This document shows positions 44,395 to 50,077 of a stretch of 64,000 nucleotides of DNA, in pieces; within the stretch, counting starts at the first letter, position 1; every line of letters begins with the position of its first letter. This stretch comes from Candidatus Eremiobacterota bacterium (GTDB taxonomy: Bacteria; Vulcanimicrobiota; Vulcanimicrobiia; Vulcanimicrobiales; Vulcanimicrobiaceae). The stretch spans positions 1-64,000 of the forward strand of contig JAFAKB010000049.1 in the NCBI GenBank assembly GCA_019235885.1, in the 5' to 3' direction. The notes beneath the pieces were generated by a model. It was not told the origin of the DNA. It was given only the letters and a program-made list of their open reading frames with translations, and did no database searches. A program made the position numbers and the translations under genes.

Positions 44395-45117
44395 GTGAGC
44401 CTCGTGCTGGCCGACGTCGGCGTCCGCTACGGGGGCGTCGCAGCGCTGCAGGACGTCTCGCTGATCGTCGAGCGCGGCCACGTGCTCGGCCTGATCGGCC
44501 CGAACGGCGCCGGAAAGACGACGCTCGTCAACGCGACGACCGGGCTAGCACCGCTCGCCTCGGGCACGATCGCGCTCGACGGCATACGGATCGACGGCCT
44601 CCCTCCGCACCGCATCGCACGCAGCGGGATCGCGCGCACCTATCAAAACATCCGCCTCTTCGCCGCGCTCGACGTCCACGCGAACCTCGCCGCCGGCGCC
44701 TACGCCCGCCCCGGCCGCCTCACCGCCGACGAGATCGCAACATTGCTCGAGCGTGCCGGGATCTCCGGCGCCGATCCGGGCACGCGCGCCGGTTCGCTTC
44801 CGTACGGCGACCAGCGCCGCTTGGAGATCGCGCGCGCGCTCGCCGCGCAGCCGGTCGTGCTGATGCTCGACGAGCCCGCCGCCGGGATGAACCCGGCGGA
44901 GACGACGCGCCTGGTCGAGACGATTCGCGCGATCGCCGCGAGCGGGATCGCGGTGCTGCTGATCGAGCACGACATGACGCTGGTGCGCGCCGCCTGCGAC
45001 TCGGTCGTGGTGTTGAACTTCGGCGAGGTGATCGCGCGCGGCACGCCGGCCGAGGTGGCGCGCGATACGGTCGTCGTCGAAGCGTATCTCGGCAGCGGCG
45101 CGGAGGCGCTGGCGTGA
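44395..45117 (+). CDS. livG: Branched-chain amino-acid ABC transporter ATP-binding protein (LivG family)
   Basis: 240 residues from the GTG at 44395. Walker A is GPNGAGKTT (~36-44), the Q-loop lies in ARTYQNIRLFAALDV, the signature region is LPYGDQRRLEIARAL (a divergent ABC signature typical of LivG), and Walker B is VVLMLDEPAAGMNP. The next ATPase begins at a GTGA overlap with this gene's stop. Confidence 0.93.
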   Translation: MSLVLADVGVRYGGVAALQDVSLIVERGHVLGLIGPNGAGKTTLVNATTGLAPLASGTIALDGIRIDGLPPHRIARSGIARTYQNIRLFAALDVHANLAAGAYARPGRLTADEIATLLERAGISGADPGTRAGSLPYGDQRRLEIARALAAQPVVLMLDEPAAGMNPAETTRLVETIRAIAASGIAVLLIEHDMTLVRAACDSVVVLNFGEVIARGTPAEVARDTVVVEAYLGSGAEALA

Positions 45118-45851
45118 GCGCCGCCGCGTCGCCCCGCGCATCAAACGTCGCCGTGCTCGCGGTCGACGCGCTGCGCGCGGGCTACGGCAACATCGAGGTG
45201 CTGCACGACGTCTCGATCGCGCTCGACGAGGGAACGCTGTGCGCGATCGTCGGCGCGAACGGCGCCGGCAAGACGACGCTGCTGATGGCGCTCGCCGGCG
45301 TGCTGCCGGCGCGCGGCGGCCAGGTGACGTTCGACGGCCGCGACGTGACGCGTCTCTCCTCGCACGCGCGGGTGAAGCGCGGGCTCGTGCTGGTCCCCGA
45401 AGGCCGCCGCATGCTTCCCGGGATGAGCGTCGAGGAGAATTTGCAAGTGGCGGCGAGCGCGCGCGGCGCCGAAGGCTTCGCGCGCATCGACGGGCTCTTC
45501 GACCGCTTCCCGATCTTGCGCGCGCGGCGGAACGTCCCCGCCGGCTCGCTCTCCGGCGGCGAGCAGCAGATGCTCGCGATTGCGCGCGCGCTGGCGATCG
45601 GCCCGAAGGCGCTCTTGCTCGACGAGCCGTCGATGGGTTTGGCGCCGAAGCTGGTCGACGAGATCTTCGCGATCGTCGCCGCCGAGCGCGCCCGCGGCAC
45701 GTCGATCTTGCTGGTCGAGCAGAACGCGCGCCGCGCCTTGGCGCTCGCCGACCGGGCCTACGTGATGGAGCGCGGCCGCATCGTGCTGACCGGCACCGGC
45801 GCCGAGCTCGCCACCCACCGCGACGTCGTCGCGGCGTACTTAGGCGGCTGA
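45114..45851 (+). CDS. livF: Branched-chain amino-acid ABC transporter ATP-binding protein (LivF family)
   Basis: 245 residues from the GTG at 45114, four bases inside livG. Walker A is GANGAGKTT, the signature GSLSGGEQQMLAIARAL, and Walker B is ALLLDEPSMGLAP. With LivG it powers the transporter. It is the last gene of the operon; the long non-coding RNA region follows. Confidence 0.93.
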   Translation: MSAAASPRASNVAVLAVDALRAGYGNIEVLHDVSIALDEGTLCAIVGANGAGKTTLLMALAGVLPARGGQVTFDGRDVTRLSSHARVKRGLVLVPEGRRMLPGMSVEENLQVAASARGAEGFARIDGLFDRFPILRARRNVPAGSLSGGEQQMLAIARALAIGPKALLLDEPSMGLAPKLVDEIFAIVAAERARGTSILLVEQNARRALALADRAYVMERGRIVLTGTGAELATHRDVVAAYLGG

Positions 45852-45906: not shown

Positions 45907-45988
45907 GTGGATAACCGGGCTTTCCTGTGGAGAGCCGGGCGACGCGTGCGCCCGACCCCTTGCGCCGCTGCGGGCGCCGCATTATGAT
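45907..45988 (+). promoter_or_regulatory. Promoter region of tandem RNA unit 1
   Basis: TTGCGC (45960-45965), 17-bp spacer and TATGAT (45983-45988). Upstream lie two GTGGA boxes at 45907 and 45927, exactly 20 bp apart; the second is 33 bp before the -35. The first sits in GGTGGATAA, close to a DnaA-box-like word. The same arrangement precedes all four units. Confidence 0.75.
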
Positions 45989-45994
45989 GCCGAC

Positions 45995-46198
45995 ACGTCG
46001 AAGGCAACGACGGCGGGGCGAGCGACGAGAGGCTCGCCGGCGTAGAACGCGACCGGCGCGCGGTGTAAGCCGAGCGACAGTTGTACGGAAAGCGCCGTTC
46101 CGAAGTTCGACGCCGTCTTGGCTGATGGTGAATCGGCGAGGACATGCGCAGATCGATTCTCGTGCGCCGGCCTCCAGGAAACATGCCTGGGGGCCGCG
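45995..46198 (+). ncRNA. Tandem structured RNA, unit 1
   Basis: Start inferred seven bases after the -10. The unit folds locally: hairpin 1 CGTCG-N7-CGACG, hairpin 2 with GGCGAGC/GCTCGCC arms, a conserved CGAAGTTCGACGC block, then a hairpin with arms GCTGA and TCGGC. After CAGATCG and TTCTCGTGC it ends in a 10-bp stem (GGCCTCCAGG, loop of seven, CCTGGGGGCC; one G-U) at 46169-46195. There is no credible coding frame. It is the most diverged at its 3' end among units 1-3. Function unknown. Confidence 0.65.
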
Positions 46199-46204
46199 TT
46201 GCTT

Positions 46205-46305
46205 GTGGATTACGGGGATTGCATGTGGGTCGCCGTGGAGAACTGAAGATTCTTGTGGATGAGAGGTTTGAGCCTCTTGCGCCGTGATTCCGAGGTTCGT
46301 ATGAT
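46205..46305 (+). promoter_or_regulatory. Promoter region of tandem RNA unit 2
   Basis: TTGCGC (46277-46282), 17-bp spacer and TATGAT (46300-46305). GTGGA boxes lie at 46235 and 46255 (20 bp apart), with further GTGGA/GTGGG boxes at 46205 and 46225, all in 10-bp register. The last box is 22 bp before the -35. Confidence 0.75.
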
Positions 46306-46311
46306 GTCGTC

Positions 46312-46518
46312 ACGACGAAGGAAACTTCGGCGTGCGAGCGACGAGGAGCTCGCCGATAAAGTAGACTTGCAGCGCACGATGAAAGTCGAGCGAGGTAAGG
46401 AAGAAATATCGATTCGAAGTTCGACGCTGGTTTGGCCGATGCAAGTCGGCGAGACCACGCGCAGATCGGGTTCTCGTGCTGAAGAAGCCGTACAGGGAAA
46501 CTTGGACGGCTTCGTCGC
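46312..46518 (+). ncRNA. Tandem structured RNA, unit 2
   Basis: Same family as unit 1. Hairpin 1 has different bases but the same pairing (CGAAG-GAAA-CTTCG). Hairpin 2 is CGAGC/GCTCG, and CGAAGTTCGACGC is identical. The later hairpin is GCCGA/TCGGC. CGCGCAGATCG and TTCTCGTGCT follow, and the unit ends in GAAGCCGT...ACGGCTTC (46484-46491 and 46506-46513). The changed but still paired stems support an RNA rather than a protein. Confidence 0.7.
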
Positions 46519-46541
46519 TTCTCTGCGACATGTGCCTCTTT

Positions 46542-46684
46542 GGTCGGGTGGCGCATAGTGCTGTGCGGGGCACGCTCCCTGCGCGCATCCTGCGCTTCGG
46601 TCGCTACCACTCCGTTCGCTCCCGGCCATCCTGGCCTCCGCGAACTCCGTGAGTGCCCCGCACAGCACTATGCGCCACCCGACC
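46542..46684. repeat. Large palindromic element A
   Basis: Perfect 32-bp terminal inverted repeats (46542-46573 and 46653-46684) enclose 79 bp. Element B at 47171 is the same element in the opposite orientation. It lies just downstream of RNA unit 2. The element has no coding capacity; it is either a MITE-like mobile repeat or a very stable hairpin. Confidence 0.85.
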
Positions 46685-46749
46685 CGGCACGATGTCGGGC
46701 GGGCGACGAAGGTTTCCGGGGCATAGCAGGGATTGTGCCAAGCCGGGTC
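46681..46749. repeat. Secondary dyad next to element A
   Basis: GACCCGGC (46681-46688) pairs with GCCGGGTC (46742-46749). The left arm shares bases with the end of element A, so the two hairpins are mutually exclusive. A T6 run (46765-46770) lies downstream and could complete a terminator for read-through from unit 2. Confidence 0.5.
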
Positions 46750-46807
46750 ATTTTCGCGGGGCGCTTTTTTGGGAGGGTGTGGATTGCGTGAGTTGCTGCG
46801 GAATGGC

Positions 46808-46888
46808 GTGGAGAAGTGAAAGTTCTTGTGGAGAAGCGCCGTTTTCGGCCTTTAGCCTATTGCGTGCTCCGTACGCAGCGCTTATGAT
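46808..46888 (+). promoter_or_regulatory. Promoter region of tandem RNA unit 3
   Basis: TTGCGT (46860-46865), 17-bp spacer and TATGAT (46883-46888). GTGGA boxes at 46808 and 46828, 20 bp apart; the second is within TGTGGAGAA and is 32 bp before the -35. Confidence 0.75.
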
Positions 46889-46894
46889 GCGAGC

Positions 46895-47098
46895 ACGTCG
46901 ACGGCAACGACGACGGGCGAGCGACGAGAAGCTCGCGGTGCAGAATCGGACGCTGAGCGATGCAAGTCGAGCAGCGTATGAATGAAGCGCCTACGAAGTT
47001 CGACGCCGTAATGGCCGGTGCAAGCCGGCGAGGACGCGCGCAGATCGGATTCTCGTGCTGACCGAAGCCGTACGGGGCGACCCGAACGGCTTCGTCGC
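46895..47098 (+). ncRNA. Tandem structured RNA, unit 3
   Basis: The best-preserved copy. Hairpin 1 is CGTCG-N7-CGACG, hairpin 2 GCGAGC/GCTCGC with loop GACGAGAA, and a third hairpin ACGCTG/CAGCGT. CGAAGTTCGACGC follows, then the hairpin GCCGG/CCGGC. AGCACG near the 5' end can pair with CGTGCT near the 3' end to close the fold. The unit ends in GAAGCCGT...ACGGCTTC (47064-47071 and 47086-47093). Confidence 0.7.
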
Positions 47099-47133
47099 AT
47101 TTGAGCGATCGGCGCGCGTTCGCCGGCAATTCT

Positions 47134-47166
47134 ACGATGGTGCGGTGCTGCGAGTTCCACCATCGT
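47134..47166. repeat. Hairpin upstream of element B
   Basis: ACGATGGTG (47134-47142) and CACCATCGT (47158-47166) form a 9-bp stem between RNA unit 3 and element B. It adds to the dense run of palindromes here; role unknown. Confidence 0.6.
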
Positions 47167-47170
47167 GCCG

Positions 47171-47313
47171 GGCCGGGTGGCGGGTAGTGTTGTGCGGGGC
47201 ACTCGCGGAGTTCGCGGAGGCCTGGAGGGCCGGGAGCGAACGCAGCGGTAGCGACCGGAGCGCAGGATGCGCGCAGGGAGCGTGCCCCGCACAACACTAT
47301 CCGCCACCCGGCC
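47171..47313. repeat. Large palindromic element B
   Basis: 32-bp terminal arms (47171-47202 and 47282-47313) pair at 31 positions with one G-T. The 79-bp interior is the diverged reverse complement of the interior of element A. Where the arms differ from element A, three positions or blocks are changed on both sides so pairing is kept. It lies after RNA unit 3. Confidence 0.85.
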
Positions 47314-47357
47314 AAAGCGCGCTGCCCTGTGGAATGAGCGATTTGATGCGAAACGCC

Positions 47358-47429
47358 GTGGACAAGCAAAATTTCTTGTGGACGGCGGCATCGACCATCT
47401 TGCGCGCGGGAACGATGAGACCTTATGAT
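47358..47429 (+). promoter_or_regulatory. Promoter region of tandem RNA unit 4
   Basis: TTGCGC (47400-47405), 18-bp spacer and TATGAT (47424-47429). GTGGA boxes at 47358 and 47378, 20 bp apart; the second is 22 bp before the -35. Confidence 0.7.
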
Positions 47430-47435
47430 CCGTCC

Positions 47436-47640
47436 ACGTCGACCCCGAGTCGACCGCGAGCAGCGAGAAGCTCGCCGGCGAAGAGACAGTACACGGAAGG
47501 CGCAAGCCCGACGGATGCCCGATCGCCGAGACGAACATGACGCCCTCCTGGCTGAGCCGATCGGCGAGGAGAAGCGCTCCTCGATTCTCGCGCGAGAACG
47601 AAGCCGCGCCGGCCCACGCCCCGCGGCTTCGGCGCGTTCT
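47436..47640 (+). ncRNA. Tandem structured RNA, unit 4 (most diverged)
   Basis: Shares the architecture but is the most diverged in sequence: hairpin 1 GTCGAC-N5-GTCGAC, hairpin 2 GCGAGC/GCTCGC, later hairpin GCTGA/TCGGC, then an extra CGAGGAG/CTCCTCG stem. It ends in GAAGCCGCG...CGCGGCTTC (47600-47608 and 47622-47630). It ends about 20 bp before the PQQ-propeller gene, so it might also act as that gene's leader. Confidence 0.6.
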
Positions 47641-47660: not shown

Positions 47661-49554
47661 GTGAACGCGGCCGGCACACGCCGAATGCGCGCGCCGATGC
47701 ACTTGCACGTTCGGATTATTTCCGTCACGGCGTTCGTCGCGTGCGCTGCGGCCGCCACGACGGCGCTCTCAACCGGCGCACCGGGCGAGGTCACGATGTT
47801 TCGCGGCTCGCCGGCACACGAGGGCGTGTATCCCGGGCGCGGCACGCCGTCGTACGGCGGATTGCAGTGGCGCTTTCGCGCGGGCGGTGCGATCCACGGG
47901 TCGGCGGCCGTTGCGAACGGCACGGTGTTCGCCGGAAGCAGCGACACGAAGCTGTACGCGCTTGATGCGCGCACCGGCGGCGTGCGATGGGCGCGCGCGC
48001 TCGGCGCGCCGGTCTCGTCGACGCCCGCGGTCGCGAACGGCGTCGTGTACGTGCAGACGTTCGCCGGCCGCGTGCTCGCGCTGCGCGCGTCGAACGGGAC
48101 GACGATCTGGAGCCGCGACGGCGCGGCGCTGATCCCGTTTCCGTGGGGACACGAAGGCTGGGACGTCTATACGTCTTCGCCGACGCTGGTCGCGGGGACG
48201 CTGCTGATCGGCGGCGGCGACGGCTTTCTGCGCGCGCTCGATGCGGCGACCGGGCGCGAGCGGTGGCGGCTTGCGACGAGTGGGCGCGTGCGCGCGACGC
48301 CGGCGGTTCACGACGGCCGGGTGTTCGTCGCGAGCTTCGACGGCGACGTGTACGCGGCGGATCTGGCGACGGGGCGGCTCGCGTGGCGCTTCGAGACCGA
48401 GGGCCATGCGCTCGACTCCAGCAAGTTCGGCTACGACCGGCACTCGGTGCAATCGTCGCCGGCGGTGGCGGGCGGCATCGTCACGTTCGGGTCGCGCGAC
48501 GGACACCTCTACGGCGTCGACGAGCAAACCGGCGTGCAGCGCTGGCGGCTGCACGACACGGTGCCGTGGATCATCGCCTCGCCAGCGATGCAGGACGGCC
48601 GCGCGTACGTATCGAGCTCCGACGGGCGGTACGTCGAAGCGGTCGACGCCGCGAACGGCAAACCCGTGTGGACGTTCGACGCCGGGGCGAACTTCTTCAG
48701 CTCGCCCTCGATCGCGGGCGACGTCGTCTACGACGCCGACTTTCAGGGACGCGTGCACGCGCTCGACAAACGGACCGGGAAAGAGCTGTGGCGCTTCTCC
48801 GCGGAGGGGAGCCGCATGATTTCCACACCGGTGATTGCGGGGGGACCGGCTCTACGTCGGCGCCGACGACGGCTCACTCTTCGCGATCAACCTCGTACAA
48901 GGCGAGGCGCTGCGGCGGGCGGTGTTCTGGGACGGCGCGTACGTGAAGTCGAATCTGATCGCCGCACACGAACGGCTCAAGACGTACTTCGCGGCGCGCG
49001 GCTACGACGTGCTTGACGCCGAGGCGCTGCGCGCGTTTCTCCAGGCGCGCATCGCCGACCGCGCCCGCAGCGTCGTCGTCTTCGCAATGGACGATCTGCC
49101 CGACGCGCTGCGCGACAACGCGCGCGGGCGCGGGCTATTGCGCCGTTATCTCGACGCCGGCGGGAAAGTAGTGTGGCCCGGCCTTCCACCGGCGCTGTTC
49201 AAGGTGGACCGCGCGAGCGGCCAGGTCGACGTCGGGACGCTCGATCGCTCGCGTCCGGAGGCGCTGGTTGGCGTGCGCTTCCAACGCGGCAACTTCGATC
49301 CGCTCAGCGAGCACGTCACCGCGGCGGGACGGCGCTGGAACCTGGACGGCTGGTGGAACGGGACGTGGTCGGCCGACGCGGACTCGGTCACGACGGTGCT
49401 GGCGCGCGACGAGAACGGTGATGCCGGAATGTACGTGAAAACCTACGGCGGGCCGGACGGCAGCGGCTTCGTCGGAATGATGGTTCCCGAGGCCGAGACG
49501 ACGACGCACTTCCTCGGGATGCTGCAGGTCGCCGCGGAGTTGTTTCCGCGCTAG
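47661..49554 (+). pseudogene. PQQ-type beta-propeller protein with C-terminal domain, frameshifted
   Basis: The first part (start GTG 47661, or ATG 47688/47700) has a signal peptide (HVRIISVTAFVACAAAATTALS). It is followed by propeller blades of the BamB/PQQ type: VFAGSSDTKLYALDARTGGVRW, VYVQTFAGRVLALRASNGTTIW, LYGVDEQTGVQRW. At a run of six G (48838-48844 region) the frame is lost; one base fewer gives GGDRLYVGADDGSLFAINL, which continues the last blade. From there a ~200-residue C-terminal domain runs to 49554 (AAHERLKTYFAARGYDVLDAEALRAFLQ, VVFAMDDLPDAL), ThuA/amidotransferase-like in pattern. Either a one-base sequencing error or a true or phase-variable break. If intact it would be a ~630-residue exported protein. 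Confidence 0.75.
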
Positions 49555-49564
49555 GGCACGTCCA

Positions 49565-50077
49565 TCAGTTACCGTTCCACTGCGTGAACGGCGCGGGCTT
49601 CGAGTACGGCGGTCCGACTTCGATCGTCACGTCGAGATGCTGGGTGAGCTCGATCTTGCGCGGATCGCCGGTATAGCGGTTTCCGTCGACCCAGACGGCG
49701 ACGTGCTCGTTCTTCTTCGGCTTCGCGCCGGCGACGTCGGACTTGCTCAGCGGCCGCCCCCAGATGTCGAAGAAGTTCCCGAGCGTGAAGTATCGGAAGC
49801 TCGGCGACTCGATGTGAATGATGCCGTCGGGCGTGTGCGTGTGCAGCCAGTAGAAGCACTGTCCGACGAGCGGGCGGCCGACGTCGTCGGGAACGGTCAC
49901 CGGTTTACCGTGATCGAAGATCGCGAGGTGCTGGTGAATGTGCAGCACCGAGCCCTCCATCTGATCGCAGCGGATCCCGTCGACCGGCTGCCCGGCGGGG
50001 ATCGCGGCGCGCGCGGCACCGGCGGAGGCCAGCATGCCGAGCGCGAGCAGGAAGACGAACGGCTTGAACGGTCGCAT
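49565..50077 (-). CDS. Secreted histidine-rich protein of unknown function
   Basis: 170 residues. The signal peptide is FKPFVFLLALGMLASAGAARA. The mature part has two histidine clusters, SVLHIHQHLAIFDHGKPV and FYWLHTHTPDGIIHIESP, plus a Cys pair (IRCDQ, GQCFYW) that could form a disulfide. It ends in a strand-rich region (HLDVTIEVGPPY). The histidines suggest metal binding in the periplasm. I do not recognise a named family. It converges on the PQQ gene with a 10-bp gap. Confidence 0.75.
   Translation of the reverse strand: MRPFKPFVFLLALGMLASAGAARAAIPAGQPVDGIRCDQMEGSVLHIHQHLAIFDHGKPVTVPDDVGRPLVGQCFYWLHTHTPDGIIHIESPSFRYFTLGNFFDIWGRPLSKSDVAGAKPKKNEHVAVWVDGNRYTGDPRKIELTQHLDVTIEVGPPYSKPAPFTQWNGN

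Follow-up and report, generated by a model that had tools for sequence, protein, structure and literature searches.

Qrr, LhrC and AbcR are multicopy sibling small RNAs (sRNAs), and sibling sRNAs such as these are seed-pairing RNAs of about 100 nt with a simple fold. NgncR_162/163 of Neisseria are likewise multicopy sibling sRNAs (PMC9973317). The locus described here lies in a window of 64,000 nucleotides (the whole stretch of DNA that was analysed; contig JAFAKB010000049.1 of assembly GCA_019235885.1) from a Candidatus Eremiobacterota bacterium. Like the sibling sRNAs, it comprises a set of homologous RNA genes, arranged partly in tandem, whose copies have diverged; at least two homologous RNA genes with their own promoters mark a sibling family, and here there are four units with four predicted promoters. 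Unlike them, the units are about 215 nt long, with a conserved pseudoknot, five hairpins and no Rfam family, and they resemble sibling sRNAs in copy number only.

Two other kinds of RNA invite comparison. 6S RNA (RF00013) is similar in length, structured and transcribed from its own promoter, but it forms one long interrupted helix with a central bubble, whereas the units adopt a pseudoknotted multi-hairpin fold. Protein sponges of the CsrB/RsmZ type share with the array many hairpins and a possible dose effect of the copies, but inspection of the units recognised no repeated GGA-loop motif. Rfam 15 gives no match above the gathering threshold in the window, at nine related loci or at 15 single-copy loci. 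At permissive thresholds it returns microRNA-model matches to inserted palindromes only, together with CrfA (RF01527, a Caulobacter sRNA), to which one single-copy relative scores 33 bits (gathering threshold 38). The latter match is not common to four siblings or to the units of the window, and both kinds were judged to be due to chance. A literature search found no RNA regulator for this lineage.

We regard the four units as paralogous genes of a new family of structured non-coding RNAs that act in trans, have been amplified and are under a cell-cycle-type control, and we give this joint reading a probability of about two in three.

Four RNA units and their homologues

The gap between livF and a PQQ-type beta-propeller gene is filled by four units of about 200-215 nt, all in one direction, at irregular spacings of 317, 583 and 541 bp (Table 1). 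A search of the genome with unit 3 matches only these four places. A first-pass annotation of the window had proposed structured, unrecognised RNA genes here, multi-copy and independently promoted, and the comparative data agree. The four units lie where it put them, with predicted starts within 1-2 bases of its own, and each has a predicted TTGCG-17/18-TATGAT promoter; its account of the shared blocks and of the altered bases in hairpin 1 and the late hairpin also holds. It saw no credible protein gene in the gap. Frames 0, 1 and 2 are interrupted in 30, 23 and 32 of 37 units, and with stops in every frame across the units there is no conserved open frame. The known systems that it had set aside do not return: no Rfam family gives a convincing match, and the irregular spacing, the length of the units and the liv transporter and secreted-protein neighbours do not fit a type III toxin-antitoxin system or CRISPR. 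Nor are the units 6S RNA, since RF00013 does not match them, their fold differs, and separate full-length 6S candidates, mostly sub-threshold, occur at other sites (above threshold in 2 of 13 genomes and weak in 8), a weak one in this genome among them. The pseudoknot, the operator upstream of each promoter and the palindromic insertions had been missed.

Table 1. Positions in the window of the predicted array features and the flanking genes
Feature	Position	Strand	Remarks
livF	45114-45851
Putative operator, unit 1	45907-45931	+	GTGGATAACCGGGCTTTCCTGTGGA; two TGTGGA-type boxes; one mismatch to GTGGA-N10-TTCTTGTGGA
Predicted promoter, unit 1	45960-45988	+	TTGCGC-17-TATGAT; -10 box at 45983
RNA unit 1	45994-46205	+
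Hairpins, unit 1	P1 45997-46014; P2 46018-46037; P3 46038-46097; P4 46111-46148; P5 46167-46198
Pseudoknot, unit 1	loop 46025-46031; tail 46157-46163
Putative operator, unit 2	46235-46259	+	GTGGAGAACTGAAGATTCTTGTGGA
Predicted promoter, unit 2	46277-46305	+	-10 box at 46300
RNA unit 2	46311-46522	+
Hairpins, unit 2	P1 46314-46331; P2 46334-46353; P3 46354-46411; P4 46425-46461; P5 46483-46514
Pseudoknot, unit 2	loop 46341-46347; tail 46471-46477
Palindromic element	46538-46694		between units 2 and 3
Putative operator, unit 3	46808-46832	+	GTGGAGAAGTGAAAGTTCTTGTGGA
Predicted promoter, unit 3	46860-46888	+	-10 box at 46883
RNA unit 3	46894-47102	+	best match in this genome to the independent model R2
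Hairpins, unit 3	P1 46897-46914; P2 46917-46936; P3 46937-46991; P4 47004-47040; P5 47063-47094
Pseudoknot, unit 3	loop 46924-46930; tail 47050-47056
Palindromic element	47161-47317		between units 3 and 4
Putative operator, unit 4	47358-47382	+	GTGGACAAGCAAAATTTCTTGTGGA
Predicted promoter, unit 4	47400-47429	+	-10 box at 47424
RNA unit 4	47435-47639	+	diverged subtype
Hairpins, unit 4	P1 47438-47454; P2 47456-47475; P3 47476-47528; P4 47541-47576; P5 47599-47631
Pseudoknot, unit 4	loop 47463-47469; tail 47585-47591		GCGAGAA/TTCTCGC, compensatory change
PQQ/beta-propeller gene	47661-49554		frameshift near 48.8-49.0 kb
Partner gene of the array	49568-50077	-	His-rich protein with apparent signal peptide

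Searches at the DNA level and with HMMs and covariance models place 35 units in the genus, with 2-4 in each of its 11 genomes, counts in which the arrays of some metagenome-assembled genomes are cut by contig ends. The sister genus has four units in two genomes, and in many related genera the homologues are single or paired. Exact-pattern matches in named genome records all belong to Candidatus Eremiobacterota/WPS-2. Twenty single-copy relatives align to the same order of elements. Model R2 was built from these alone, without the array units. Among 149 genomes of the phylum, 66 have a match to it, in many cases at two loci, and the model also covers the array units over their full length (best E 1e-9). 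The combined promoter and operator pattern yields 37 hits in 31 of 117 genomes across the class and none in the reversed control. Weak matches to model R1 in genomes G017, G121, G020, G117 and G082 lie away from any syntenic site and were not accepted. Better ones, beside the partner gene in G014, G094, G095 and G024, have their start at the conserved promoter and were accepted for that reason.

The PQQ/beta-propeller gene is frameshifted, through an assembly error or as a pseudogene; its relative on L039 is one frame. The two palindromes are inverted copies, 92% identical, of a MITE/REP-like element of 157 nt with 32-bp arms and are separate from the RNA units; about ten more copies or fragments occur elsewhere in the genome.

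Promoters, operator and candidate regulators

Each RNA is predicted to start at its own promoter, made of a -35 box TTGCG, a spacer of 17 or 18 bp and a -10 box TATGAT, with the start near a conserved CAC(G). In the 4.5-Mb assembly the pattern TTGCG..TATGAT..CACG occurs exactly four times, all at the array, and the reversed pattern does not occur. The weak -35 box points to activation of these promoters. Upstream of nearly every unit is a putative operator, GTGGA-N10-TTCTTGTGGA. Measured from CTTGTGGA, the -10 box lies 48/49 bp away in 15 units and 58/59 bp away in 20, and nothing falls between these values; in relatives the operator stands 58/59 bp from the -10 box in 21 of 22. The two distances differ by one helical turn, suggesting that the regulator protein sits on one face of the DNA. 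We propose that a DNA-binding protein probably switches transcription on from TGTGGA-type boxes on this face, upstream of the weak -35 box.

The operator element is found at few other places in the tested genomes. In G005, G006 and G028 such sites are just upstream of minC; inspection finds it, in the same or a closely similar form, ahead of minC in six genus genomes, and a TGTGGACAAC-N8-TTTCYYGTGCA-N5-TGTGGA-like operator is conserved there across the genus (L270, L272, L274, L278, L280 and L281). This common box arrangement suggests a probable link of the RNAs to growth or the cell cycle. The rpmH-dnaA (oriC/dnaA) region of the genus contains similar TGTGGA-type words, for example TGTGGATAAGTGGACAAC. 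With boxes shared with minC and similar words near dnaA, DnaA is a candidate regulator of the RNA promoters, by word similarity. Set against the DnaA-box class TTATNCACA, the TGTGGA boxes resemble those of oriC/dnaA, but the best-conserved operator word, the 10-mer TTCTTGTGGA, is conserved on the left flank and not across the full DnaA box. A still more specific reading is that the replication initiator, or some other regulator of the cell cycle, sets transcription across the whole family through helically phased boxes that minC also has, and that one genus has amplified the RNA into several specialised ones; this seems to us rather unlikely.

The strongest competing view keeps the RNA as described and assigns its control to another TGTGGA-using activator, for example a WYL-domain protein. 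On the side of the RNA away from the partner gene, the neighbour is often a WYL-domain regulator gene (Pfam PF13280), which lies close by in 6 of 15 further loci, and the best-conserved word differs from the canonical DnaA box. However, minC in the genus is preceded by three boxes in the same arrangement, the rpmH-dnaA region is dense in similar boxes, and the genus array adjoins livF and not a WYL gene. We hold this view to be a real possibility, if somewhat on the doubtful side.

Two side observations concern the window's own assembly (G000). An operator-like GTGGACAACTGAAGTTTCCTGTGGACAATGTGGACAA (L188 5862-5886; G000:C79:33861) is followed by a TTGACA promoter-like site and a short open frame. 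Contigs C88 and C52 (L185, L186) carry two strong DnaA-domain matches near contig ends, which may reflect a split assembly, a second strain or contamination.

Fold and pseudoknot

The single-strand folds of units 1-4 are all more stable than those of dinucleotide shuffles (z = -4.0, -6.0, -5.2 and -2.5). From 5' to 3' the predicted elements are P1, P2, whose loop takes part in the pseudoknot, P3, P4, the pseudoknot tail and the terminal hairpin P5; the pseudoknot joins the P2 loop to a TTCTCGT block near the 3' end. Across 36 units, 38 of 55 pairs show two-sided changes, a value that 0 of 500 shuffles reached, in an alignment that is sequence-based and with a structure partly derived from the sequences on which the pairs were counted, most helices having been proposed from folds of these same sequences. 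In the same alignment, 91% of cells are paired, compared with 31-42% after sliding the partners. The 20 single-copy relatives give independent covariation, with two-sided changes in 21 of 44 pairs (0 of 500 shuffles).

Four units suggested the pseudoknot, and the remaining ones served to test it. Its first pair changes from A-U to G-C in 10 of 36 units and to C-G in one, and complementary variants of the two strands include ACGAGAA/TTCTCGT, GCGAGAA/TTCTCGC, CCGTAA/TTACGG and ACGTTCG/CGAACGT. Cognate strands pair better than swapped ones (0 of 5000 in the array set and 2 of 5000 in the single-copy set). RNAalifold offers an alternative pairing of GCGA of P2 with a conserved TCGC after P5; it was rejected because P2 and the pseudoknot covary and the alternative hardly does. 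P3 is further supported by some first copies, in which it is shortened to a small stem with a GNRA-like loop (GCAA or GCGA). The conserved segments CGAAGTTCGACG and GCAGATCGA are left unpaired. A pseudoknotted RNA family is well supported by covariation. The covariation that the first-pass annotation had read from four units survives in the 36 units and then in the 20 further homologues. Its terminal hairpin is present as well, but the T-run after it is weak in the array units, so their 3' ends may come from processing; in many single-copy relatives the hairpin is followed by a T-rich tail.

Such a fold could serve to bind a protein. The RNAs would then titrate or inhibit that protein as decoys of the CsrB or 6S kind, with copy number setting the dose. 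The multiple copies, the many small hairpins with GNRA-like loops (GCAA, GAAA) and the rigid pseudoknotted core fit a scaffold for a protein better than a short seed-pairing sRNA. However, inspection recognised no repeated single-stranded motif of the CsrB type, several of these genomes have a separate weak 6S RNA candidate, and the copies are diverged into positional subtypes and not identical. We consider decoys unlikely. The divergence also bears on the earlier suggestion of dose- or condition-dependent regulators, which remains plausible except for identical dose copies: the siblings are diverged, partly position-conserved subtypes.

Neighbourhood and origin of the array

Wherever a contig shows both sides, the genus array lies between livF and the gene for the His-rich secreted protein (the partner gene). 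This protein has an apparent signal peptide and contains HIHQHL and LHTHTPDGIIHIESP. Of 99 genomes in the family, 96 have a homologue, and searches of Pfam, NCBIfam and PDB found no relative. In several genera the partner gene adjoins a histidine ammonia-lyase-like gene. Eight genomes from other genera have livF and the partner gene in convergent orientation, with 3-66 nt between their ends and no RNA there; in two of these (G013 and G121) an RNA is on the far, divergent side of the partner gene. Comparison of coordinates shows one RNA copy divergent from a partner-gene homologue in about 40 genomes, and in the sister genus one unit lies on either side of the gene. The partner gene is convergent with the array here and usually divergent from the RNA in other genera.

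It is very improbable that the units are leaders, attenuators or riboswitches acting in cis on neighbouring genes. Unit 4 ends about 30-50 nt before the co-directional PQQ-type gene in the window and in one relative, but in the other genus genomes with a readable junction the array is followed by the convergent partner gene. Each unit carries a promoter and a terminal hairpin of its own, and the surroundings of the single-copy relatives vary: these RNAs are often convergent with a WYL-domain regulator or lie close to nad and transporter genes. With no conserved open frame, no constant co-directional downstream gene and different locations between genera, the RNA is most likely a regulatory RNA that works in trans. 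It is hardly credible that the array consists of mobile or phage-derived repeats with no function in the cell, as the tandem repetition and the two dispersed palindromic elements inserted between units might suggest, given the strong covariation, the conserved promoters, a locus fixed in the genus, the lack of a match to the array pattern in viral contigs and the lack of an RNA copy outside the array in this genome.

Synteny and the tree support an origin in which an ancestral copy beside the secreted-protein gene gave rise to two to four diverged siblings in the genus. The simplest history would be a duplication across the partner gene followed by tandem amplification. In the tree, the copies at the end of the array form one group for most genus genomes (support 0.95), with partial grouping at other positions, which marks the copies as maintained subtypes. 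Comparison between genomes establishes the predicted transcription units as separate, together with the conserved fold, the pseudoknot, the phased operator and the tandem amplification.

The array belongs to a pseudoknotted RNA family, supported by covariation, that is broad in a little-studied soil phylum and absent from Rfam 15, and the family provides a natural gradation, from genomes with one or two copies to tandem arrays of diverged siblings. The operator shared with minC is a direct and testable link from an RNA regulon to cell division. If the proposed control is true, these RNAs would give cell-cycle control in this uncultured bacterial phylum an arm made of RNA.
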